Assembly (NCBI RefSeq): GCF_001512285.1
Contig: NZ_LNUV01000001.1
Coordinates: forward strand, 230,015-294,014
DNA length: 64,000 bases
DNA from: Arthrobacter sp. EpRS71
GTDB taxonomy: Bacteria; Actinomycetota; Actinomycetes; Actinomycetales; Micrococcaceae
Direction of reading: 5' to 3'
Under the pieces are notes generated by a model. It did not search any database. It was not told the DNA's origin and saw only the letters and a list, made by a program, of their open reading frames with translations. Of the stretch, positions 30,651 to 43,708 are shown in pieces; the first letter of the stretch is position 1, and every line of letters starts with the position of its first letter. A program made the translations under genes and the position numbers.

Positions 30651-30872
30651 CTACTGGACTGAGAACTCGCCCAGTTCAGACCAGCCGTCGACCTTAGCGT
30701 TGACGATGTCCGGGGCGTGGCGGAGAAGGGCAGGCAACTCGGCCATGGCTTGCTTGAAATGTGCTGATTGAACATACACACAGCTTCTTGCATCGGCGGA
30801 ATGCTTTCCGAGCGGGCACGGGAGCCCTACGCTGTGCATCCGCACACAGCGGGGGGGCAGACCAAAATCCAT
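30651..30872 (-). pseudogene. Possible C-terminal gene remnant
   Basis: The last 45 codons (SCVYVQSAHFKQAMAELP onwards to DGWSELGEFSVQ) have strongly G/C-ending third positions and look like genuine protein, whereas the N-terminal part is compositionally odd and lacks a ribosome site. I read it as the tail of a lost gene; the family is not recognised. It lies between the convergent LuxR and ilvE genes. Confidence 0.35.
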
Positions 30873-32851: not shown

Positions 32852-34231
32852 TCAGCTGATGTTGTCGTTGTAGGCGACGTCTTTGGTTTCACGGCTGACC
32901 AATAGAGCGATCAGGGAGATGACGCACATTCCGCTAAGGTACAACCCGACCAGGACAGGGCTTCCTTGGGCGACGCTCCACAAAGCAACAGCTATCAGGG
33001 GCGCGAGTGCTCCGCCCAGGATTGAGGAGATGTTGAAGCTCAGGGCGGAACCGGTGTAGCGGACGTTGGCGGGGAATAGCTCGGGTTGGAACGCACCCAT
33101 TGGTCCGTAGCTGAGCCCGAGGAGGGCAAACCCGACCAGCAACAGTGTCATGACGCCCGGCGTTCCTCCGGAGAGCAGCGGGACGAACAGGAGCCCCAGT
33201 GCGATGATCAACACCATTGACACGATCAGGACGCGGCGGCGGCCGAACCGTTCAGCGAAGGGTCCTGCGATCAGGGTGAAGGCGGCGAACGCGACGGCGC
33301 CTACAACGATCATGAGCATGAAGGTTGGGCGGTCGTATCCCAGACCCGGTACGGCGGCTGTGGTGGGCGTGGTGCCGTAGCTGAGGGTGAAGGTGCTGAG
33401 GATGAACACCAGACTGAAGAGGGAGACCATCGAGAACGTACCGATGATGATTGCCTTCCAGCTTGTTTTGAAGACTCGTGCGAGGGGAAGCTTGGCGACC
33501 TCGCCTTCCTCTACGACCTTCTTGAAGGCCGTTGACTCCACCAAGGACAGACGTACCCACAATCCCACTATTACCATGAGGGCGCTTGCGAGGAACGGGA
33601 TGCGCCACCCCCATGCGAGGAAAGCCTCAGCGCTCAACATTGCTGTAAGCAGCAAAAACAAGCCGTTGGCAATAATGAACCCGAAAGCGGTGCCGAGCTG
33701 GGGGAACGAACCATAAATGGCACGCTTGCCCTCCGGTGCGTTTTCGGTCGCCAGTAGTACCGCGCCGCTCCATTCACCCCCGAGCCCCAGTCCCTGTGCG
33801 AAGCGCATGAGCACGAGCAGTGCGGGTGCCAAGAACTCCCATCCGGGCGTGGTTGCACTGGGGATCAACCCGATCGCGAAGGTTCCGAGGCCCATCGTCA
33901 GCAATGAAGCAACGAGCGTTCCTTTTCGTCCGATCCGGTCACCGAAATGGCCGAAGAGGACGCCTCCGATGGGACGGGCAAAAAACGCGACACCGAACGA
34001 GGCCAGCGAAGCGAGCAGGGCGGTGGACGGTGACGATGTGATGAAGAACAAGTAAGGGAAAACCACGACAGCGGCGGTGGCATAGATGTAGAAGTCGTAG
34101 TACTCGATCGTTGTGCCGATCAGGCTTGCGAAGAGAACCTTTCCGCGGCTGTTCGTCGGTGCGGTGCTGGCCGTGATGGAGCGTTCGACTTCGCCCGGGG
34201 CTCCCTTGAGGGATGGTTCATGTATGGACAT
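32852..34231 (-). CDS. MHS-family MFS metabolite:H+ symporter
   Basis: A 459-residue transporter of the metabolite:H+ symporter family with about 12 helices. Diagnostic segments are LIGTTIEYYDFYIYATAAVV at the first helix, FFARPIGGVLFGHFGDRIGR as motif A, and RFAQGLGLGGEWSGAVLLA. This family imports organic acids such as shikimate, proline betaine, alpha-ketoglutarate or aromatic acids. It lies 91 bp beyond the alcohol dehydrogenase gene on the same strand, so it may be the last gene of the amidohydrolase-DUF59-ADH transcription unit. A close paralogue is at 47102. Confidence 0.92.
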   Translation of the reverse strand: MSIHEPSLKGAPGEVERSITASTAPTNSRGKVLFASLIGTTIEYYDFYIYATAAVVVFPYLFFITSSPSTALLASLASFGVAFFARPIGGVLFGHFGDRIGRKGTLVASLLTMGLGTFAIGLIPSATTPGWEFLAPALLVLMRFAQGLGLGGEWSGAVLLATENAPEGKRAIYGSFPQLGTAFGFIIANGLFLLLTAMLSAEAFLAWGWRIPFLASALMVIVGLWVRLSLVESTAFKKVVEEGEVAKLPLARVFKTSWKAIIIGTFSMVSLFSLVFILSTFTLSYGTTPTTAAVPGLGYDRPTFMLMIVVGAVAFAAFTLIAGPFAERFGRRRVLIVSMVLIIALGLLFVPLLSGGTPGVMTLLLVGFALLGLSYGPMGAFQPELFPANVRYTGSALSFNISSILGGALAPLIAVALWSVAQGSPVLVGLYLSGMCVISLIALLVSRETKDVAYNDNIS

Positions 34232-34322: not shown

Positions 34323-35357
34323 TTAAGGGATCAGAATGGCGCGTCCACGCACTTTGCCTGCGTCGAGGTCGCTGAGGGCCTTTTGAAATTCGTCCAGCGC
34401 GTATTTCTGCGTATGCAGGGTAACTGCTCCGCGTGCGGCGAGGGCCATGAGGTCCTGCAGGTCGTTGTAGGAGCCCACAAGGTTTCCGATGATGTTGATT
34501 TCGCTGGAAACGATGTCGATGGTGGGTACGTCCATGTTTTCTCCGTATCCGACGACGTAGTAGTTGCCGGCGTTGCGCAGCATGGCGATGCCCTCGGCGG
34601 TCGCGCCACCTTCGCCGACGAAGTCGATGAGGACTTCGGCGCCATCACCGGATGTGAGCTCCCGGACCTGATCTACCTGGGTTCCGTCAGCTAGGACTCC
34701 GTGGTCAGCTCCGATGGACTTGGCAAGTTCCAAGGCTGCGGGGTTACGGTCCACGACGACGACGCGGGCCGGGGTGAGAGCCTTCAGTACCTGGATGCCG
34801 ATATGTCCCAGTCCGCCTGCGCCTATGACCACACAGACATCCCGCGGGGTAAGCTGCTTGGCTGCCCTTGCGGCGGCGTGATAGGCCGTCAGCCCGGCGT
34901 CGGCCAGGGCGGCCACGTCCGAGGGCTCGAGTGCGGCATCGAGCTTGACCACCGCGCGGGCTGAGGTGCGGAGGTATTCCGCGTACCCGCCGTGAGAATC
35001 GATACCCGGGAAGTTGCTGGTTTGGCAGTGCACATCGTTGCCCGACCGGCAGGCCCTGCACAGTCCGCACGTGACGAGCGGGTGGAGTATGACTTTGTCT
35101 CCTATTTTTACGTTGCTGACGGCGGTGCCAATATCGTGGACCCATCCTGCGTTTTCATGGCCAATGGTGTAAGGAAGGTGGACTTGGGATTTCTCAGCCC
35201 ACTGGCCATCAAGGATGTGCAGGTCGGTCCGGCAAACCCCTGCTCCGCCGACTTTGACGATGACGTCCCAGGGGCCGGTAACTTCGGGGATTGGTACTTC
35301 GGACATTTTGAGGCCTTCGTGGTAGCCGACCACCTGGACGGCTCGCATGGTGTTCAC
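34323..35357 (-). CDS. Zinc-dependent alcohol dehydrogenase
   Basis: A 344-residue medium-chain alcohol dehydrogenase. Catalytic zinc ligands C42, H67 and E68 (VCRTDLH, GHENAG), structural zinc cysteines C97, C100, C103 and C111, and the NAD fold GAGGLGHIG (179-187) are all present. It oxidises an alcohol to an aldehyde or ketone. Its start overlaps the DUF59 stop by four bases. In mycobacterial and rhodococcal binuclear-iron propane/phenol monooxygenase loci an ADH of this type follows an amidohydrolase and a DUF59 gene, so oxidation of the monooxygenase product (2-propanol or similar) is a plausible original role. No monooxygenase is encoded here. Confidence 0.93.
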   Translation of the reverse strand: MNTMRAVQVVGYHEGLKMSEVPIPEVTGPWDVIVKVGGAGVCRTDLHILDGQWAEKSQVHLPYTIGHENAGWVHDIGTAVSNVKIGDKVILHPLVTCGLCRACRSGNDVHCQTSNFPGIDSHGGYAEYLRTSARAVVKLDAALEPSDVAALADAGLTAYHAAARAAKQLTPRDVCVVIGAGGLGHIGIQVLKALTPARVVVVDRNPAALELAKSIGADHGVLADGTQVDQVRELTSGDGAEVLIDFVGEGGATAEGIAMLRNAGNYYVVGYGENMDVPTIDIVSSEINIIGNLVGSYNDLQDLMALAARGAVTLHTQKYALDEFQKALSDLDAGKVRGRAILIP

Positions 35358-36172
35358 GGGTGGTGCTCCTTGACGGTGAAGGGAAGAAATCGATGGCGGT
35401 CGCTGGTTTCAGCGCCTTCGGGGCGTTCCACTTGGTCAGCGCCCGAGCCTGCGTAGCGGGTGCGCAACAGACCGCGGCAAAAATGGGCGTTCCCATCGAT
35501 GGAGATGCGCGTGGACCGCGCGCGGCGCAGGGCCATGGGGATGTCTTGGACGGCGAAGGGGTATCCCGCATGGTTGACCATGACCAGGGCATCCTCACTG
35601 ATGGAAAGGTCCAGGGTTTCCCTTCTGCGCAACAGTGACTCGACGTTCCTCCCGGGCAGCAGGTCCCGGACGTGAACAGTTGCGAGATCGTTTTCCGAAA
35701 AGGACGGGTCCGAACGCAGCAGTTCCGTGAGGCAGCGCTCCATGGCGGCGGTGTGGGCCTTTCGCTGGAATGTCAATCGGAGCTCGTCGAGGCTGTCGTC
35801 CGCCTCGTGGCCGAAGGTTCCGCGGTAGCCGGCGTCGGCCGCCAGCCCAGCGTTGATGAGGTCAGAGTCGTGGTGGTCGTCCAGCTCAACAACCACGGAC
35901 CCCACGCCCGTCACTGCTGTGATGGCATCCTTGGAATCGGATGCCATCAAGTAGGCGAAATTAGGCGAACAGAACGACGTTGGCAGCCGCAGATGAACGT
36001 GAACGTCCGTCCCGGCATCGCCGGCGGCCACGGACACGGAACGAACAAAGCCCAGATCGGTGATCGGCTCGTCCAATTCAGGATCAAAGACACCTCCCAG
36101 CACCCGGAGGATGTCGTGCTTCCCGATCAGGGCAGGATCCTGCCGCTGGTCTTCCGCCCACGTGGCCTTCAT
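35354..36172 (-). CDS. DUF59/MIP18 domain protein (monooxygenase-cluster accessory)
   Basis: A 272-residue protein whose N-terminal half is a DUF59 (MIP18/PaaD-like) domain: VFDPELDEPITDLGFVRSV (residues 28-46) and a cysteine at 68 in TSFCSPNF. DUF59 proteins help assemble or insert metal clusters. The C-terminal half has no domain I recognise but ends in a region rich in basic and aromatic residues. It overlaps the amidohydrolase stop and the alcohol-dehydrogenase start by four bases each, so the three are translationally coupled. Such a gene is known next to Prm/Mim-type di-iron monooxygenases, where it presumably supports metal-site maturation. Confidence 0.85.
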   Translation of the reverse strand: MKATWAEDQRQDPALIGKHDILRVLGGVFDPELDEPITDLGFVRSVSVAAGDAGTDVHVHLRLPTSFCSPNFAYLMASDSKDAITAVTGVGSVVVELDDHHDSDLINAGLAADAGYRGTFGHEADDSLDELRLTFQRKAHTAAMERCLTELLRSDPSFSENDLATVHVRDLLPGRNVESLLRRRETLDLSISEDALVMVNHAGYPFAVQDIPMALRRARSTRISIDGNAHFCRGLLRTRYAGSGADQVERPEGAETSDRHRFLPFTVKEHHP

Positions 36173-37215
36173 CGAATGCCTGCCAGGTCGGCGCGTTCCG
36201 GTTCCCGAGGACCGGTCGTAGTCTCGTCGGCATCAGGGAGCTGGAGTTCCTTCGGTACCGGGATGTCGTACATCTTTGCCGCGTTGAGTCCGAGGATCTT
36301 CTTTTTCTGCGCGGTGGTCAGCGGCCCGTATTCGGTCATGTCTGCAGGGATTTGGAAGTCCACGAAACGTTCAATAAGCCACTTCGGCGTCCACAGGGCG
36401 TAGTCGCTGGCGAACTGGATCCGATCCTCTCCGATCCAGTAGATGAGTTCGCCGATGATCTGGGCGAAGTAGCGCGGGCGGGTGTGGATGAACGGCATCG
36501 CTACAGCAAGTCCGCCGTAGACGTTGGGTTCCTGCGTGGCGATCCAGCAGAAGTCCTCAAGGCGGGGCAGCCCCACATGCTCGACAATGAAGTTCAGGTC
36601 AGTAAAGTCCGAAGCCACGTGGTCAACGTCTGCGACGTCGAAGGCGTCCCTGTCGAGAGGCCGGATGGTTGGGCCCTTATGGACATGGATGTTCTTGATG
36701 CCGAGCTCCCGGCACTCCTCAAAGTACCGGTAGGACCATTTGTCCGAGAGCTTGTAGCCCCGGGATTCTCCGTGCCATTCGGCGGTGTAGAGTTTGACGC
36801 CCTTGAAGCCCATCTTCTCGTGGTCGGCACGGAGCCGGTCCAGCCCGGCCTCGCCGTAACGGGGGTCGAAATTGTGGTTGTACGTCAGCCTCTCAGGATT
36901 CGCTGCTGCCAGTCCGTAGGCCTCCTCAGTTTGCCCGAAACCCGTCTTGTAAAACTCACCAAGGTGGGCCGGCTGGAAAATGGCGTGGTCGACGTAGCCG
37001 TCCTCGAAGACATCCTTCATCAGACGCTGACCCCCCTGGTAGAGGTATTCGTCGTAGGACCACTGTTCCTTTTCCGGGGAAAGGTTGCGGTGGTAATCGT
37101 AGAAGCAGTCGATGAACTGCTTGCCGTGGATGTTGCGCTGGTTCTCCGGGCGGGCGTCCCACAGTGCGATGTGGGAGTCAACGATGAAGTAGTTCTCGCC
37201 GTCTTTGGTGTACAT
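36169..37215 (-). CDS. Amidohydrolase-family protein (monooxygenase-cluster accessory)
   Basis: A 348-residue amidohydrolase (metal-dependent hydrolase, TIM barrel). Metal-site features are VDSHIALWD near the N-terminus (H15), VKLYTAEWHGE, HVHKGPTIRPLD, VEHVGLPRL and FASDYALW near the C-terminus. Homologues occur as a conserved, little-understood gene beside binuclear-iron propane/phenol monooxygenases, and have been suggested to support monooxygenase activity rather than hydrolyse a metabolite. A strong AAAAGGAG site precedes the start. It is the first gene of the operon; the palindrome CTGTCTCA-TTAT-TGAGACAG lies 80 bp upstream. Confidence 0.9.
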   Translation of the reverse strand: MYTKDGENYFIVDSHIALWDARPENQRNIHGKQFIDCFYDYHRNLSPEKEQWSYDEYLYQGGQRLMKDVFEDGYVDHAIFQPAHLGEFYKTGFGQTEEAYGLAAANPERLTYNHNFDPRYGEAGLDRLRADHEKMGFKGVKLYTAEWHGESRGYKLSDKWSYRYFEECRELGIKNIHVHKGPTIRPLDRDAFDVADVDHVASDFTDLNFIVEHVGLPRLEDFCWIATQEPNVYGGLAVAMPFIHTRPRYFAQIIGELIYWIGEDRIQFASDYALWTPKWLIERFVDFQIPADMTEYGPLTTAQKKKILGLNAAKMYDIPVPKELQLPDADETTTGPREPERADLAGIR

Positions 37216-37294
37216 GGTCTTCTCCTTTTCACGACTGCCATAGTCGCGACATCCTCGACAGTACGGCCGTTCTGAAGGCCTAAACGTGTGGTCC

Positions 37295-37314
37295 CTGTCT
37301 CATTATTGAGACAG
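37295..37314. promoter_or_regulatory. Operator CTGTCTCA-TTAT-TGAGACAG
   Basis: A perfect inverted repeat with 8-bp arms and 4-bp spacer, 80 bp before the amidohydrolase start and 159 bp after the AcoR/MimR-like regulator stop. Symmetry and position suit a binding site for that Fis-type regulator. Confidence 0.75.
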
Positions 37315-37472
37315 CCGCCGCCCGAAGGTGGCGTCTCCTCGGGTGTCGGTCCGAGGGCAGCAATACGGTAATTGGAAGCCGGACGTGGGGCTCCCATTCG
37401 TCTCCGGCCAGGCCTGTGTGGGTGCACCGGAAAATGGGCGGCTCCGTCGGTGTGCCGATAAGCTCCCGTCAA

Positions 37473-38978
37473 TCACGTGGAGGACTTGGGCACGCTGATA
37501 CCCAGGCGTGCCATACGACGGTAGATCGTGGCGCGGCTGACGCCCAGCTCTACCGCAACGATGGCGGCCGTCATACCTGGTTTCGACAGAAGCCGGTCGA
37601 TTTCCTCGCGTTCTATCGTTTCCATGTGAGTAAGACGTCGGGATGGTCGCTGCGAAAGTGAGGCCGGAAGATGCTGTACGTCGATGACTTCGGTCCGTAG
37701 CGCTGCCGCGTGCACCACGCGGTTCAGCTCATCGATGTTCCCTGGCCACTCGTGCCCTGTAAGAACCCGCTCCGCTGCGGGAGTGAAGTCGATGGCCCGC
37801 AGCCGGGTTTGTCTGGCCGCGTGTCGGGCCAGTGGAACGATGTCCTCGGGACGTTCCCGCAACGCTGGTACGGCGACCACTGTCCCAACGGCAGCTGCCA
37901 AAGGTTGTGGAATGGTAGACAACTCTTCAGCGGTTAGGGCCAATGACGGCAGGCTGGCGTGAGCAGACGCCCGACGCAATCTGAGGGCGGCTTCGGTCCT
38001 GAAATTCAGATCGCGAGCCGCCCACGCCGGCAAGGTATCACAGTTCTCCACGATGACCGCTGTCCCTGCTTTGGCCAGTTCGGGGGTCCATAGAGAAAGC
38101 CATGCGTCAACATCCGCTGGCGCGGGTGCTGCGGCGCAAAGAATACGGATACGCGGATGGACTTGCCTCAGCGCCTGACCCAATAATGTTGACCGTCCTG
38201 ACCCTTGTTCGCCGAGCGCCGCGACGACGCGTCCTGCCGACAATGCCGCTGCTGTTTTTTCGAGCGCTCGAGTCCAGGAAGTCGAGGTGGCTCGCCACGT
38301 TCCGGCGCCCGGTTCGAGTTTTCCGTGAACACGGAAAACCACGCCCCTCGGCCCGGGCTTGGCCACCAGTCCCTGTGAGCGGGCGAGCATGAGGGATGAG
38401 GTATGGCTAGCAGCTGATTGTGCCAGAGCCAACAACAGCTCAGGTGATGAGCTGGTGTAAGTGGTGATATTGACGCAGCCCTCCAGCCGGCCGCTCAGTG
38501 GTTCGAAGACAGGGACCGCCGCGCAAGTGAACATGCGCAGGCTCGCAGAGTAGTGCTCCTCAGCTCTCACCAGACTTGGTACCCGATCTGCCAGCGCGAG
38601 GCCCAGACCATTTGTCCCGGCTTCCCTTTCCGAAAAGGCAAAGCCCGGGGCCAGATGAACCTTGTCCAGCGCCTGAAGGAGAGATGAATCGCCGCTGAAC
38701 CGGTTCAGGACCATGCCATCGGCGTCGGTAAGCATCAGGCCCAGCGGTTCGTTGGCCAGGGTCTGGTGCATGGCGGTGAGTACTTCCTGACCGCATTGGA
38801 AGAAGAGTGAATCCGAACTGATTTGGCCAGCCCAGGCCGGGTCCACCCCCTCGGCCGAAACCCCGTAGTCCTGACTGCGCTGCCATGATGCCAACAGGCG
38901 CTTGGTCATTGTGATCACTTGATATTCAGGCGCCTCGTGAGCGGCTGGGGGAAAGAGGGGATTGTGCTGCTTCGGCAT
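37473..38978 (-). CDS. AcoR/MimR-like Fis-type transcriptional activator, degenerate AAA domain
   Basis: A 501-residue regulator built like a sigma-54 activator: an N-terminal GAF sensory domain (about 60-200, with EREAGTNGLGLAL), a central AAA-like domain with Walker-A-like GEQGSGRST (256-264), and a C-terminal Fis HTH (MTAAIVAVELGVSRATIYRR). The GAFTGA loop needed to contact sigma-54 is absent, as in other actinobacterial AcoR/MimR proteins, so it probably acts with an ordinary sigma factor. An AAGGAGG site precedes the start. It is followed by the amidohydrolase-DUF59-ADH operon, which it presumably activates. Its ligand may be an alkane, ketone or phenol. Confidence 0.9.
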   Translation of the reverse strand: MPKQHNPLFPPAAHEAPEYQVITMTKRLLASWQRSQDYGVSAEGVDPAWAGQISSDSLFFQCGQEVLTAMHQTLANEPLGLMLTDADGMVLNRFSGDSSLLQALDKVHLAPGFAFSEREAGTNGLGLALADRVPSLVRAEEHYSASLRMFTCAAVPVFEPLSGRLEGCVNITTYTSSSPELLLALAQSAASHTSSLMLARSQGLVAKPGPRGVVFRVHGKLEPGAGTWRATSTSWTRALEKTAAALSAGRVVAALGEQGSGRSTLLGQALRQVHPRIRILCAAAPAPADVDAWLSLWTPELAKAGTAVIVENCDTLPAWAARDLNFRTEAALRLRRASAHASLPSLALTAEELSTIPQPLAAAVGTVVAVPALRERPEDIVPLARHAARQTRLRAIDFTPAAERVLTGHEWPGNIDELNRVVHAAALRTEVIDVQHLPASLSQRPSRRLTHMETIEREEIDRLLSKPGMTAAIVAVELGVSRATIYRRMARLGISVPKSST

Positions 38979-39230: not shown

Positions 39231-40745
39231 TTACTTGTCAGGGTCATTCCGTAGGGGCCGATTGGCCACAACAGGGGCGGTTCCGGTGAATCCTTCACGG
39301 ACGGGGGCGAGCTCCCGGATCCGTTTGCGGCACAGGAACCAGCCCACCACCATAAGGGCACATGCGACTGCCGTGACCAGCATCGTCAGCGGAGAATCGA
39401 TGAACACCAGGACCAGCACCCCAATAATGAACAACAACGCGAGGTAGTTGGTATAGGGGGCGCCAGGCATCCGGAACGCCGGCCGCTTGACCCAGCCCTT
39501 GGCGGCCCATCGTTGCAGCTGGACCTGGCAGAGGAGGATGGTCGCCCAGGTGGTGATGATCCCGACGGCGGCAATGTTCAGCACGATTTCGAAGGCCTCG
39601 GCCGGGACATAGTAGTTCAAGGGAACGCCAAGAAGGGAAACTCCGGCGGTGATGGCGATGCCTCCGTAGGGCACACCTGCTTTATTCATATGCTGGGCGA
39701 ACTTCGGGGCAGACCCGGCGACGGACATCGAACGCAGGATGCGGCCGGTGGAGTATAGTCCTGCGTTCAAGGACGAGAGCGCAGCGGTGAGGACCACGAG
39801 ATTCATGATGACGTCCACACCTTGGATGCCGATGGACCCGAAGAACGTCACAAAGGGGCTGACGCCCTTTTCGTAGGAAGTGTAGGGCAGGAGCAGGGCC
39901 AGCAGGAGTACAGAGCCAACGTAGAAGACTGCGATACGGAACACCACGGAGTTGATGGCCTTGGGCATGATCTTCTCTGGGTTTTTGGTTTCGCCGGCGG
40001 CCGTGCCGACGAGTTCAATGGCGCCGTAGGCGAAGAGCACACCCTGCATAAGGAGGATCATAGGAAGAACGCCATTGGGGAAGAGTCCGCCATTGTCCGT
40101 GATGAGGCTGAAACCGACTTCCTGGCCGGCGACAGGGGTACCGAAGATGACGAAGTAGATGCCGACTAGGAGGAAGGCTACTAGTGCGCCGACCTTGATG
40201 AGGGCGAACCAGAATTCCATTTCACCGAACACTTTAACGGAAACCACGTTCAGGCTGAGCACCACGACCAGTGCGATCAGAGCCCATGCCCACTGTGGAA
40301 CTGCGCCCATCCAAGGGACGTATTTACCGAAGAAGTTCATGTAAAGGGCGCACGCGGTGATGTCCACGATGGTGATGGTTGCCCACGCGATCCAGTAGAA
40401 CCAGCCAGACACGAAGGCAGCCTTCTCGCCGAAGAATTCGCGTGCGTAGGAGACGAAGGATCCCGACGAAGGGCGATGCATCACCAGCTCGCCCAGGGCT
40501 CGCAGGATGAGGAAAGCGATGAAACCGCAGATCGCGTAGGAGAAAACCAGGGATGGTCCAGCGGCGTTAAGCCGGCCACCCGCTCCCAAAAACAGGCCGG
40601 TGCCGATGGCGCCGCCGATGGCGATCATTTGGATTTGACGGGGTTTGAGGTCTTTGTGGTACCCGGCATCCTCGGTGTGAAGGTCTTTCTCGCTGGCGTG
40701 CGCCTGGGGCGGGACCGTGTGGTCCGTGATGGGTGCGTCGGTCAT
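39231..40745 (-). CDS. Amino-acid permease (APC superfamily, AAT/GabP type)
   Basis: A 504-residue amino-acid:H+ symporter with 12 expected helices. The diagnostic first segment QMIAIGGAIGTGLFLGAG, the FVSYAREFFGEKAAFVSGW loop, and GTAAGETKNPEKIMPKAINS mark the AAT family (GabP, ProY, AnsP). An AAGGA site precedes ATG 40745, which starts at the conserved part; the longer frame to 40808 adds only 21 unusual residues. It is not tightly linked to the neighbouring genes. The substrate may be GABA, proline or an aromatic amino acid. Confidence 0.9.
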   Translation of the reverse strand: MTDAPITDHTVPPQAHASEKDLHTEDAGYHKDLKPRQIQMIAIGGAIGTGLFLGAGGRLNAAGPSLVFSYAICGFIAFLILRALGELVMHRPSSGSFVSYAREFFGEKAAFVSGWFYWIAWATITIVDITACALYMNFFGKYVPWMGAVPQWAWALIALVVVLSLNVVSVKVFGEMEFWFALIKVGALVAFLLVGIYFVIFGTPVAGQEVGFSLITDNGGLFPNGVLPMILLMQGVLFAYGAIELVGTAAGETKNPEKIMPKAINSVVFRIAVFYVGSVLLLALLLPYTSYEKGVSPFVTFFGSIGIQGVDVIMNLVVLTAALSSLNAGLYSTGRILRSMSVAGSAPKFAQHMNKAGVPYGGIAITAGVSLLGVPLNYYVPAEAFEIVLNIAAVGIITTWATILLCQVQLQRWAAKGWVKRPAFRMPGAPYTNYLALLFIIGVLVLVFIDSPLTMLVTAVACALMVVGWFLCRKRIRELAPVREGFTGTAPVVANRPLRNDPDK

Positions 40746-40955
40746 GGGAATCCTTAGATGGAAGCGTCCTGTTGGGAAGGTAACGCGAAGAGTGGGAAGG
40801 CGCGCCAAGGGCCAGCCTGGGCGATGTGGGCTGCAGGTTCTGTCGACATAACGGGGGCTATGGCATGTCCATGACCGCGGTTTGTGGACGTGCCGGCTAA
40901 AGGAGGCAGCCGGCCTAGGGACGCTGGCTGCCCAGAGGTCTCGTCGGCTTCGGGG

Positions 40956-40992
40956 GGACTGCTGGGGCGGTTGCAGTGCGCCCCAGCAGTCC
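40956..40992 (-). terminator. Terminator-like hairpin after the RraA-family gene
   Basis: A perfect 14-bp stem GGACTGCTGGGGCG / CGCCCCAGCAGTCC with a 9-base loop, immediately beyond the stop at 40997 on the minus strand. No U-tract. Confidence 0.7.
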
Positions 40993-40996
40993 GCTC

Positions 40997-41704
40997 TTAT
41001 TCTTCGATCTCTCCGCCGAAGGCACGAAGGTGCTGCCGGAAAGTGAAGTCAGGGTCCGCGCTGCGGGCTTCCAGGTAATCACCTAGGCGGGCTTGTGTCC
41101 GGAACGTTGTGCCGTGGTGCATGCGGGCTGCCTGGGTTCGTTCAGTGTCCCGGATCGTGGTTGCCACGGCCGCCACCTCCGCGGCGTGCTCGAGGGGGAT
41201 AAACAGGACCCCGTCGTCGTCTGCGAGGACGAAATCCGCGCTTGAAACGCAGTGCTCGCCGCTTCTGGCCGCTGTTAGCGCGTCTTCGCCGCGGGCGTCA
41301 AGTCGCTGTGGTCCCACAGGCGATGCCCCGAGACTGAAGACGGGAAGCCGGATGCTGGTGAGCTCCCCGGTGTCCCGGTGCAGACCCCAGATCAGGATGC
41401 CGGACAAGCCTGCATTCTTTGTCTCCAGTGTCACCAGGTCTCCGACGCATGCTTCGTCCAGACGTCCGCCGTTATCGACGACCAAAACGTCTCCGGGAGA
41501 TGCGATGTCGATGGCTTCAAGGAAAACATCAACACTGCCAACGTGTCGGGCAGGGGCAACGCGTCCGACAAGATGTGTTCCGTTCCAAAGCGGCACCGTC
41601 CCCGGAGGGGCTGTGCGAACCGGAACGCCGACGCGCATGCACGCGTCAGCTACGTGGGGCGTTGTCAGATCAAGGTAGATCCGGTGCAGCTGTTCTGATT
41701 CCAC
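40997..41704 (-). CDS. RraA-family 4-hydroxy-4-methyl-2-oxoglutarate aldolase-like protein
   Basis: A 235-residue member of the RraA/HMG-aldolase family, longer than RraA itself. Conserved segments are TPHVADACMRVGVP, GDVLVVDNGGRLDEACVGD, GILIWGLHRDTGEL and FVLADDDGVLFIP. The usual GxxxRD motif reads GLHRDT, keeping the Arg-Asp pair. Such enzymes cleave 4-hydroxy-2-oxo acids to pyruvate and another 2-oxoacid, or decarboxylate oxaloacetate. GTG start with a GGAGAAG site, 2 bp after the acetoacetate-decarboxylase-like gene, so the two form an operon. Confidence 0.8.
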   Translation of the reverse strand: MESEQLHRIYLDLTTPHVADACMRVGVPVRTAPPGTVPLWNGTHLVGRVAPARHVGSVDVFLEAIDIASPGDVLVVDNGGRLDEACVGDLVTLETKNAGLSGILIWGLHRDTGELTSIRLPVFSLGASPVGPQRLDARGEDALTAARSGEHCVSSADFVLADDDGVLFIPLEHAAEVAAVATTIRDTERTQAARMHHGTTFRTQARLGDYLEARSADPDFTFRQHLRAFGGEIEE

Positions 41705-41706
41705 GG

Positions 41707-42558
41707 TTACTTCTCCCCCACTGTCTGTAGTTGGTCCCCGTTGCGGTAGTCACGGAGCAGGTAGTTGTGGCGGTTGCTGATGCCGAGGGAGTAGCGCCAG
41801 CCGCGGCCTACGCGGACTGGCCGCAGGACGCTGAGGAGTTCGGATGGGGAGTCTTCGACGTTGATTTCGGCGCTGCCTTCCCAGATAGGTCCAGCGGTGA
41901 TATTTTCTGCCTGCAGCCGAACGAGTTCGAAGACTGCCGGCTCGTCTTCCTGTCCTTCGAACATTGACGGGAAGTGGCGAAGGGCCACAATCGGACGTGA
42001 CCCGAAAGTCACTGCCGATTCATCAGCAGGACCGCTGAGCTTGACGTGTCCTTCCGCCAGCCGGCGGTCCTTGACTGCGGCTGTTCCGGCAAAGACCGCT
42101 CCTGCTTCCAGAGCAGGTGACGCAATGTGATTCACGCCCATGGTCCGAGTAACCCAGATCGAACCGATCTTCTTGGGATAGCCCAGGGCCCAACCTCGTG
42201 CCATGGAGACGTCTTGATCGACGACGATGTACGGGCAGTACTGCATAAGCTTGCCTTCATACTGCACGCTGACAAGGACGATACATTCCCGGTACTGGGC
42301 CCGTATCGGATCGAGCAGTTCCCCGCCTTCGTCGGTGCAGGCCTGCCAATCCACAAAGGAGACGGTGACAAGGCCGGCTTCATCAGGATGAAGTGTCAGC
42401 CCGGGTGGGAGGAGTTCTTTGACGGCCGACGGATCGGCCCAGTATTCGATGGTCACGAAGTCGGCAGCGTAGTGCCATGGCGGATAGGGTGCCAGGCCGG
42501 CTTTCCCGTCGCGGGAGAAGGGGCCAACGAAGCCTTGGGCTCCAGCAAATCGTGTCAT
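41707..42558 (-). CDS. Acetoacetate decarboxylase-family protein
   Basis: A 283-residue protein of the acetoacetate decarboxylase (ADC) superfamily. The N-terminal WADPSAVKELLPPGL, the central RAQYRECIVLVSVQYEGKLM, and DQDVSMARGWALGYPKKIGS, which includes the lysine pair where the Schiff-base Lys of ADC lies, are visible. ADC-like proteins also include aldolase-dehydratases acting on 2-oxoacids, so decarboxylase activity is only one option. An AGAAGGA site precedes the start. The next gene, an RraA-type aldolase, follows 2 bp later, suggesting joint processing of an oxoacid. Confidence 0.82.
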   Translation of the reverse strand: MTRFAGAQGFVGPFSRDGKAGLAPYPPWHYAADFVTIEYWADPSAVKELLPPGLTLHPDEAGLVTVSFVDWQACTDEGGELLDPIRAQYRECIVLVSVQYEGKLMQYCPYIVVDQDVSMARGWALGYPKKIGSIWVTRTMGVNHIASPALEAGAVFAGTAAVKDRRLAEGHVKLSGPADESAVTFGSRPIVALRHFPSMFEGQEDEPAVFELVRLQAENITAGPIWEGSAEINVEDSPSELLSVLRPVRVGRGWRYSLGISNRHNYLLRDYRNGDQLQTVGEK

Positions 42559-42859
42559 GTGTGTCCTTCTAGAGAATTGGAACGGCGCTCTGCCACCGTG
42601 CGGACCAAGCCCACACCAGATCAGGGGATGTCCGCCGTTAATAGATCGACCGGGGCTTGCCTCACGAGCAGGGCCCGGTCGTTGTTGTCTGAATTTATCG
42701 TGTTACCTGTCGCACACGGCTGCGTTTTCACCCATCTTGAGGACTGTTATTGGCACAGGATTCTCCATTCCACCTTTTTCTTGAAATGTGATGCCATGAT
42801 GCTATCCCTGCGTGGTTTCGAGACGCTTTCGGCTTAGCTTGTACCCCGGTATCCGCGAC

Positions 42860-43708
42860 TCAGAAGGCGTGTTGCAGCCCGGGGAAGCTACCCCGTGCCA
42901 CGTCTCCAGCGAAGTCCACGGCGGCTTGCGTCAGCACAGAGTGCAGGTCCGCGTATTGTTTGACGAAGCGGGGCAGATTTCCGGTTCGCAGGCCCGCGAG
43001 ATCTTGCCAGACCAGGACTTGGGCGTCACAGCCGCTGCCGGCCCCGATGCCCACCGTGGGAATGGTCAGTTGGCTGGTCACTTCGGCGGCTACATCTCCG
43101 GGAACCATCTCGATCAAAACAGCGAAAGCCCCGGCTGCTTCCAGGATTTTGGCTGTGGAAATGAGTTTTTGGGCGCCGCCAACACGCCCCTGGACCCGGT
43201 AGCCGCCCAGACTGTGTTCAGATTGCGGAGTGAAGCCGATGTGAACCATCACTGGTATTCCGGCGCGGGACAGTAGCTCGACCTGGGGAGCGATCCCCTC
43301 GCCGCCTTCGATCTTCACGGCATGGGCATTTGCCTCCTTCATGAACCGTACCGCTGTGTGGAAGCACTGTTCTGCTGAGGCCTGATAGGACCCAAAGGGC
43401 AGGTCCGCGATAACGAGGGAATGCTGCGCCGAGCGGGTCACGGCCCGCACGAGCGGAATCAGTTCATCGACGGTAACGGGCAGGGTTGTTTCGTTGCCGA
43501 AGACATTGTTGGACGCCGAATCTCCAACCAGTAGCACGGGGATCCCGGCCGCGTCGAAGATCGCCGCCGTGTACATGTCGTAGGAAGTGAGCATCGCCCA
43601 TTTCTCGCCGCGGTCCTTCATGTCCTGCAGATGGTGAATCCGGACACGCTTTCGACGTTCAGTGATCGCCCGGACACCGCCGTAGGGTGCGGGTTGTTGG
43701 TCGCTCAA
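42860..43708 (-). CDS. panB: Ketopantoate hydroxymethyltransferase (PanB)
   Basis: A 282-residue PanB homologue. Counting from the start, D63-S64 (VGDS), D102 (ADLPF), K132 and E134 (VKIEGG), H156 (HIGFTPQS) and the base E200 (VLIEMVP) match the metal, substrate and catalytic residues of E. coli PanB. It transfers a hydroxymethyl group from methylene-tetrahydrofolate to 3-methyl-2-oxobutanoate, the first step of pantothenate synthesis. The loop after VGDS reads ASNNVFGNETTLP, unlike the usual LGM-type sequence. No panC or panD lies in this window. It is separated by 300 bp from the ADC-like gene, with no gene between. Confidence 0.92.
   Translation of the reverse strand: MSDQQPAPYGGVRAITERRKRVRIHHLQDMKDRGEKWAMLTSYDMYTAAIFDAAGIPVLLVGDSASNNVFGNETTLPVTVDELIPLVRAVTRSAQHSLVIADLPFGSYQASAEQCFHTAVRFMKEANAHAVKIEGGEGIAPQVELLSRAGIPVMVHIGFTPQSEHSLGGYRVQGRVGGAQKLISTAKILEAAGAFAVLIEMVPGDVAAEVTSQLTIPTVGIGAGSGCDAQVLVWQDLAGLRTGNLPRFVKQYADLHSVLTQAAVDFAGDVARGSFPGLQHAF

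Follow-up and report, generated by a model that had tools for sequence, protein, structure and literature searches.

A candidate stand-alone catabolic cassette in Arthrobacter sp. EpRS71 that shares its genes with propane monooxygenase loci

The window analysed here is a stretch of 64,000 nucleotides from Arthrobacter sp. EpRS71 (contig NZ_LNUV01000001.1, positions 230,015 to 294,014), and its positions 34323-38978 hold a regulator gene and a trio of genes for a PF04909 'amidohydrolase' (AMH), a long DUF59 protein and a zinc-dependent alcohol dehydrogenase (ADH). The same trio occurs in the propane monooxygenase (prm and mim) loci of group 5 soluble di-iron monooxygenases (SDIMOs). On balance, we favour the reading that these genes form a stand-alone catabolic cassette and are not what is left of a di-iron monooxygenase locus; the cassette would be an inducible, NAD-linked module that handles small secondary alcohols or hydroxyketones. 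The distribution of the cassette, its own regulator and conserved operator, the AMH tree and the purifying selection on its genes argue against a leftover of a lost oxygenase, and the proposed function is suggested by the identity of the ADH to mim-linked ADHs together with data from Gordonia, A. chiangmaiensis and Mycobacterium smegmatis. DNA binding by the regulator, its inducer, the substrate and the reaction of AMH and DUF59 are what we infer from these comparisons. As the small gene set is free-standing, widespread and equipped with its own switch, nothing need be missing in the window, even though this copy is locally rearranged.

The trio within prm and mim is already known, and its separation from the oxygenase has been noted once. 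In prm of Gordonia TY-5 and mim of M. smegmatis (MSMEG_1970-1979) the order is amidohydrolase, protein of unknown function and alcohol dehydrogenase, as in the window (PMC5445863; PMC6849523), and the legend of a figure of SDIMO operons names an amidohydrolase and an iron-sulfur cluster assembly protein (PMC9213486). In Mycobacterium sp. AT1 the first three downstream genes lie apart from the propane monooxygenase on the chromosome (PMC6849523). The AT1 strain (L115 in our data) has a stand-alone cassette like that of the window, but it keeps its monooxygenase (four PF02332 matches), whereas the genome of the window has none. The excerpts of PMC9213486, PMC11057499, PMC13188929 and PMC8394569 contain nothing on the stand-alone form, and the open-licence literature searched gives, in its excerpts, no account of it beyond the AT1 remark (PMC6849523). 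What appears to be new here is the free-standing, separately regulated trio in genomes without the oxygenase. Unlike prm and mim, the stand-alone cassette comes without hydroxylase, reductase, coupling protein and GroEL and has a divergent regulator subfamily of its own.

Distribution with and without the oxygenase

The genome carrying the window (4.85 Mb, scored 100% complete) gave no match to the PF02332 hydroxylase anywhere, in a search without a positive control of its own; the same search was positive in other genomes of the genus and in those with an SDIMO-linked named locus (see below). MimA, MimB, MimC and mim-type GroEL had no match within the window at E 1e-4, which agrees with the sequence-only reading that the locus holds no oxygenase genes. 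That reading had left open an oxygenase elsewhere in the genome and had proposed a search of the rest of the genome for it and for GroEL. The search found no PF02332 and two GroELs, which share 50% and 52% identity with the one from a mim-type plasmid locus of Rhodococcus, and lends the idea no support. Mim-type GroEL was present at 66-85% in 12/14 actinobacterial linked loci (L138 has 53% and the cut stretch L157 none), and in linked proteobacterial loci GroEL identity was only 41-44%. An oxygenase just past a rearrangement point is rejected for this genome, as PF02332 was nowhere found.

Two genome samples, one of the genus (101 genomes) and one of the class (296 genomes), both including the window's own genome, were compared. 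Long DUF59 homologues, scoring 160 bits or more, were carried by 18/101 genus genomes and PF02332 by 3/101, with a single genome (G030) having both, so that 17 of the 18 carriers were without PF02332. The class sample had long DUF59 in 22/296 genomes, PF02332 in 25/296 and both in seven, leaving 15/22 carriers without PF02332; the two lay within ~10 kb of each other in G121, G184, G187, G238 and G381 and far apart in G277 and G324. A scan of named species with the AMH alignment was followed for its best 80 loci, those nearest to the window's AMH. Marker proteins (tblastn) revealed mim genes in the stretch in 12 of these (L103, L138, L141, L147, L150, L151, L153, L155, L157, L159, L160 and L162) and none in 68, and these 68 had the regulator in 67 cases and an ABM gene in 26. 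PF02332 was absent from 48/64 named genomes with a stand-alone locus and present in 16/64, in a whole-genome search that covered 76 of the 80 loci (two further Arthrobacter liuii copies were left out), with the 12/12 positive linked-locus genomes as positive control and with all 14 control genomes of the tool negative. The independent job that the sequence-only reading had allowed for the trio gains support from this distribution. The same reading would have given up the link to the monooxygenase if the trio was regularly found without any di-iron monooxygenase and tied to another pathway; the trio is indeed regular in genomes without PF02332, but no single other pathway accompanies it throughout.

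Outside the actinobacteria the AMH and DUF59 genes also travel together. On plasmids, DUF59 matches and AMHs of >50% identity occur in one and the same set of 17 records, and the two genes were paired in 12/12 annotated stretches examined (12 of the 17 records). SDIMO genes accompany the pair in Ponticoccus, Paracoccus, Aminobacter, Caballeronia, Gemmobacter and Bradyrhizobium; in Rhodococcus aetherivorans its neighbours are a MimA match and a mim-type GroEL. No mim match was present in the fetched stretch around the pair in Peribacillus, two haloarchaea, Thermomicrobium and Rhizobium N324, and the ADH adjoins the pair in the two haloarchaea and Thermomicrobium. From these occurrences the pair looks like the core unit, with the ADH as its usual partner. 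These pairings, the company of SDIMO genes in both proteobacteria and actinobacteria and the membership of DUF59 domains in iron-sulfur (Fe-S) assembly would also be expected if AMH and DUF59 were maturation or support factors of SDIMOs, kept in hosts without the oxygenase by other di-iron or Fe-S clients. We regard this explanation as distinctly unlikely, given the 48 stand-alone genomes without PF02332 and the pairs beside an ADH in haloarchaea and Thermomicrobium. As AMH and DUF59 stand free in hosts without the oxygenase, their function is separable from the monooxygenase, and Arthrobacter-type soil bacteria could serve as model hosts for studying the unit. Propane or phenol oxidation should not be predicted from these genes alone.

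One named locus, L138 of Prauserella alba, has at 9.8-18.1 kb a stand-alone cassette beside a mim-type block, with two AMH copies, one with Ala and one with His at position 17 (see below).

Phylogeny and selection

The AMH tree contained 116 sequences, of which 94 bore the label stand-alone and 22 the label SDIMO-linked, according to the contents of the fetched stretch. This label changed 7 times on the tree compared to a mean of 20.4 when shuffled, and 0/500 shuffles were as low. The starred set that holds the window has 20 rows, all of them stand-alone and from its genus and other Micrococcaceae. The label of L033 is backed by a MimA match of 92% in its stretch. The tree is compatible with a move of the block into SDIMO loci as well as out of them.

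The core genes of the cassette are under purifying selection in the lineage of the window. Compared to five relatives (NG86), nonsynonymous divergence (dN) was 0.06-0.09 for AMH, 0.09-0.12 for ADH and 0.21-0.25 for DUF59, with synonymous divergence (dS) of 0.9-1.7, which is near or past saturation, and the dN/dS ratio was ~0.04-0.08, ~0.07-0.11 and ~0.14-0.19, respectively. For the regulator the ratio was 0.08-0.10 in the three comparisons with estimable dS.

Regulator and operator

The regulator has the layout of the AcoR/MimR type, with GAF sensor, AAA+ module and Fis-type helix-turn-helix (HTH), and in this it resembles the regulators of the mim loci compared. In Pfam, GAF (25.1 bits) and AAA_lid_14 (50.5 bits) were over their cut-offs, the AAA+ core was unmatched, and HTH_50 (22.0 bits) and HTH_8 (19.7 bits) were under cut-offs of 27 and 22. 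The regulator contains no GAFTGA motif, and no sigma-54 (PF04552) was detected in the genome by a search positive in 4/14 control genomes; because sigma-54 is absent, the regulator would have to work with another form of the polymerase. Identity to the window's regulator was 45-71% in most stand-alone loci, 35% in L156 and L161, and 35-42% in mim loci. Among the 87 rows in which the gene caller found both genes (at least 8 rows being one contig fetched twice), regulator and AMH diverge in 86, and the window is the sole tandem row.

A conserved palindrome, YGTCTCA-N3-TGAGACR, lies ~97 bp before AMH in the relatives. Such a palindrome is expected by chance 0.01 times in the window, where both half-sites are perfect at -98 and the spacer is 4, compared to 3 in the relatives with the site. 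Thus, the operator described as intact by the sequence-only reading is intact in its half-sites and differs in its spacer. When up to 3 mismatches were allowed, the operator was present in 90/92 rows without mim genes that have Ala17, the window (N4) included; four rows without the N-terminal motif (L108, L111, L153 and L160) were dropped, at least 8 row pairs are one contig twice, and spacer ties were assigned to 3, exact sites needing no tie-break. In the stand-alone cassette the operator stands before AMH, whereas in prm and mim it is near the hydroxylase gene: of 15 mim stretches, four had the palindrome near the MimA start (L081, L141, L159 and L162), two had it before a stand-alone-type AMH (L103 and L138), and nine had none, among them L147, which is cut at MimA.

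A remnant of a prm or mim locus, from which this strain or its recent forebears had lost the oxygenase genes, would account for the mim-like gene order and the ADH identity, and the window copy is in fact rearranged at its edges. However, the stand-alone form with divergent regulator and N3 operator is conserved over many actinomycete families, the regulator is nearer to those of most stand-alone loci than to those of mim loci, the tree places the window outside the SDIMO-linked copies, and dN/dS of the cassette genes is low. A lost oxygenase, one of the options of the sequence-only reading, therefore finds no support in distribution, regulator and operator, tree or selection, and we consider such a remnant extremely unlikely.

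Several observations weigh against a stand-alone cassette as we read it. The tree was a quick one with SH-aLRT support only, 44/113 of its inner branches are open, and near-copies inflate the clustering. In the 16 stand-alone genomes with PF02332 elsewhere, the cassette could serve a distant oxygenase. Choosing the best 80 named loci by nearness to the window favours the stand-alone clade, completeness is not stated for the named genomes, several of which are metagenome-assembled, and some stretches end at contig ends. Besides the four genes, no constant pathway gene was found among 119 clustered loci. The regulator was absent from 6/18 class-sample loci (L068, L069, L070, L071, L072 and L078), and the operator from all five rows without mim genes that have His17 (L054, L055, L068, L069 and L071). 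The argument of the sequence-only reading that an intact operator speaks against simple decay is weakened in the window by the inverted regulator, the longer spacer and a truncated ABM relic.

The six class-sample loci without the AcoR-type regulator represent a second stand-alone form, also without the operator and with His17 where counted. ADH precedes AMH in L068, L069 and L071, and an IclR-like gene stands behind DUF59 in several of these loci (by reading). In the genus loci L054 and L055 the AcoR-type regulator was not found and the ADH is divergent.

The idea that the operator is unique to the cassette regulon in the genome was rejected on a second perfect site, TGTCTCA-N3-TGAGACA, at G000:C1:351976-351992 (L165 8977-8993). 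It lies between short-chain-dehydrogenase-like and inositol-dehydrogenase-like genes (read by eye), and ~14 kb from it is a regulator of the AcoR-type family with 30% identity over residues 230-490. Closer to AMH, the window has nearly kept a hairpin-like repeat common to most of the genus relatives printed (Table 1).

Genes of the locus

As the sequence-only reading had it, the four genes are on the minus strand with four-base overlaps at both trio junctions (35354-35357 for ADH/DUF59 and 36169-36172 for DUF59/AMH), and open reading frames (ORFs) and Pfam agree on them (Table 1). Its comparison to mim and prm is likewise borne out by the trio order AMH-DUF59-ADH, which is that of the group 5 SDIMO block, by the identity of the ADH to mim-linked ADHs and by the similar palindrome in 4/15 mim loci. 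NCBIfam names none of the four cassette proteins: the matches listed were under cut-off, and AMH had no match. The MFS gene, which has the same orientation and lies 92 bp past ADH, may share a transcript with the trio in the window; among relatives it is not a constant member of the cassette.

Table 1. Features of the cassette and its surroundings, in window positions
Feature	Position	Strand	Basis
ABM (PF03992-type) truncated relic	30654..30794	-	tblastn, three-frame reading
MFS metabolite:H+ symporter-like gene	32852..34231	-	TIGR00883 396 bits, below its cut-off
ADH, Adh1-type zinc-dependent NAD-type medium-chain alcohol dehydrogenase, 344 aa, trio gene 3	34323..35357	-	Pfam ADH_N/ADH_zinc_N
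DUF59 long protein, DUF59/MIP18-fold, 272 aa, trio gene 2	35354..36172	-	PF01883 50.4 bits
AMH, PF04909 'amidohydrolase', 348 aa, trio gene 1	36169..37215	-	Amidohydro_2 175.5 bits
Hairpin-like repeat (CGCGACT-ATGGC-AGTCGCG in genus relatives), just 5' of AMH ribosome-binding site	37229..37249	-	inverted-repeat scan of AMH leaders
Operator palindrome TGTCTCA-N4-TGAGACA, 98 bp before AMH start	37296..37313	.	palindrome scan
AcoR-type regulator: GAF, degenerate AAA+, Fis-type HTH; tandem with trio	37473..38978	-	Pfam

The alcohol dehydrogenase and the proposed function

The ADH matched ADH_N (98.4 bits) and ADH_zinc_N (80.4 bits), and its best solved relative was 1h2b (321 bits). The structural-zinc motif C-x2-C-x2-C-x7-C occurs in 98/98 members of its cluster, and the protein is 64-76% identical to actinobacterial mim-linked ADHs; zinc motifs and mim-ADH kinship together mark it as Adh1-type. 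The Gordonia enzyme is reportedly called an NAD+-dependent secondary alcohol dehydrogenase in the title of a 2003 paper.

The mim/prm-linked ADH of Gordonia is needed for propane metabolism (PMC6849523). In A. chiangmaiensis DSM 45062 grown on 2-hydroxyisobutyrate the mim-cluster ADH and amidohydrolase were abundant, at 6.1% and 3.2%, being 1.3-fold and 1.6-fold their acetone level, respectively, and the authors propose a route from acetone to acetol and methylglyoxal; the table rows consulted list no DUF59 protein (PMC7176365). Nine of the ten M. smegmatis genes MSMEG_1970-1979 are listed under 'Carbon Limitation', as is the tenth, the ABM gene, with intensity ratios of 1.3-4.2 (PMC5445863). 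This ABM gene, MSMEG_1979, ends the mim cluster (PMC5445863), and an ABM gene is also found behind ADH in many stand-alone loci.

Based on these comparisons, the AcoR-type regulator would bind TGTCTCA...TGAGACA ~97 bp before the AMH gene and switch on AMH-DUF59-ADH, often with the small ABM protein behind. By analogy to the mim enzymes, the ADH most likely oxidises an alcohol or hydroxyketone of the 2-propanol or acetol class with NAD. AMH would be a metal-dependent TIM-barrel enzyme with DUF59 as its metal or Fe-S delivery partner, and the pair probably acts on the carbonyl so formed or on a related C3-C4 carbonyl. The presence of this block in group 5 SDIMO loci as well may reflect that oxidation of propane and of acetone leads into shared intermediates. 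A bolder version, which we consider very improbable, would make AMH a metal-dependent oxygenase or C-C-cleaving enzyme matured by DUF59; propane loci would then hold two oxidising metalloenzymes, and the stand-alone cassette would never have lacked one.

Neighbouring genes raise another substrate class. Among the 119 loci, ABM was counted in 34, a transketolase-like E1 in 14, DUF1097 in 10, DhaL in 6 and DhaK in 5, with a simple caller based on G+C by codon position that overlooked or misframed some genes. The Peribacillus pair is accompanied by a DJ-1/PfpI gene and a true sigma-54 activator, and the Rhizobium N324 pair by genes for a glyoxalase-fold protein and a 2-hydroxyacid dehydrogenase; as a side observation, the DJ-1/PfpI gene and the two Rhizobium genes (loci L034 and L062) hint at alpha-ketoaldehyde chemistry. 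It could be, then, that the cassette handles C3 hydroxycarbonyl stress compounds such as methylglyoxal and dihydroxyacetone and not 2-propanol or acetone, and the DhaK and DhaL genes, in 5-6 Arthrobacter-type loci, as well as the regulator's best NCBIfam model, DhaR (113.5 bits vs a cut-off of 551), would fit with this. Yet each of these neighbours occurs in a small minority of loci, and the DhaR similarity comes chiefly from the sensor portion, in a family that is broad. We consider this alternative unlikely, and keep to small secondary alcohols or hydroxyketones as the preferred substrates.

AMH and DUF59 proteins

The AlphaFold2 model of AMH (pLDDT 88.3) had TIM-barrel matches of Z 19-25 among the 50 listed, to PF04909 decarboxylases, hydratases and hydrolases; decarboxylases and hydrolases scored Z 20-25 and, lower, SfbO (8sm6) Z 19.2. 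Of solved structures, only 3irs was below E 0.01 with the sequence profile, and the alignment to dihydroorotase 4lfy reached E 0.47 only. Residues D13, H15, K141 (on strand 4), H177, H179 and H213 were invariant in 72 rows and D271 present in 71, the sole row without it coming from G030, whose ADH is in two frames. Position 17 is Ala in 53/72 rows, the window included, and His in 19/72. Dihydroorotase-like binuclear amidohydrolases bind their metals with HxH, a strand-4 Lys, a strand-5 His, a strand-6 His and a strand-8 Asp. The window protein has this set except for the second His of HxH, and all six were present in 18/72 rows. The strand-4 Lys is reminiscent of this class, but the one alignment behind the likeness is that to 4lfy. 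The active-site residues, called intact by the sequence-only reading, are so only in part; the second HxH His is Ala17, though as in most of the relatives aligned.

AMH shares fold and family with PF04909 decarboxylases and hydrolases (ACMSD, LigW, 2,3-dihydroxybenzoate decarboxylase and BB4693/3irs), but it has only ~11-18% identity to them in the aligned part, Ala17 in most rows and the invariant Lys141. Ala17 was rejected as a mark of the stand-alone form: AMH in mim stretches had Ala in 10 and His in 4, and others had Ala in 92 and His in 5. Among the 10 Ala17 copies in mim stretches, L103 and the first of the two L138 copies are of the stand-alone type and sit next to a mim block, and the printed starts of the dropped rows L111, L153 and L160 show Ala.

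The family PF04909 also includes the dinuclear monooxygenases AibH2, PtmU3 and SfbO (PMC10811679; PMC7782822), and AMH has the fold and the strand-1 D-x-H of these enzymes, D13-x-H15 being present in 72/72 rows. Together with the structural match to SfbO, this raises the question of whether AMH itself is a dinuclear oxygenase of the amidohydrolase fold, by which the cassette would bring its own oxygenase. AibH2 has six metal ligands, Asp25, His27, His211, Glu265, Asp337 and His340 (PMC7782822), and such a six-ligand set was not recovered in AMH, as judged by motif position and not by residue alignment: in place of the strand-8 D-x-x-H of Asp337 and His340, 15/15 rows printed had D271-Y-A/G-L/I, with no His three residues on. 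Dinuclear oxygenases of this kind have an adjacent small Rieske protein with 90% co-occurrence (PMC10401708), whereas none was among the nine window proteins scanned, a genome-wide search not having been made. Decarboxylases and hydrolases moreover outscore SfbO on the AMH model, and it is very improbable that AMH is such an oxygenase.

The DUF59 protein has its DUF59 domain (PF01883/FeS_assembly_P) at residues 19-94, alike in position and fold to SufT, PaaD and MIP18. Unlike these, it has an extra, mostly helical C-terminal part with C232 and R239, which together with C68 were invariant in 66 rows. Its AlphaFold2 model (pLDDT 89.4) matched DUF59 and CIAO2B structures over ~80-135 columns in Foldseek, with one match, of ~80 columns, at E 0.001 or less, which is no ground for calling the C-terminal part a new fold. 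Scores for SufT and PaaD models were far from their cut-offs (TIGR02945 30.5 vs 143.4, TIGR03406 24.9 vs 202.6 and NF041868 19.5 vs 180), and the protein was not assigned to either.

Rearranged edges of the window copy

The copy in the window has intact and selected core genes and reshuffled edges. The orientation of its regulator, inverted compared to the 86 rows of relatives, may reflect a local inversion or an assembly error. The AMH leader is homologous to those of most relatives up to the far edge of the operator, where the likeness stops. Similarity was above the best of 100 shuffles in 9/10 comparisons for the AMH leader and in 5/10, some of them narrowly, for the regulator leader. No convincing pair of inverted repeats was found flanking the regulator that would explain an inversion.

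The ABM relic has 55% identity over 47 aa (E 2e-13, tblastn) to the ABM found behind ADH in relatives, with residues 59-105 of 105 recognisable; the 73-aa ORF at this place had no Pfam match, and the intact ABM of the relative L050 (7863-8180) matched PF03992 with 72.6 bits. The relic lies 3.5 kb from the trio, past the MFS gene, an opposite-strand Lrp-like gene (by eye) and an aminotransferase gene, and it suggests a former longer operon that may have been broken by inserted genes.

On the other side of the regulator, positions 39231-43708 encode on the same strand an unusual, catabolic-looking set: a PanB-type hydroxymethyltransferase, a protein of the acetoacetate-decarboxylase fold, an RraA-like aldolase and an amino-acid permease. 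The best NCBIfam model for the second of these was MppR, below its cut-off.

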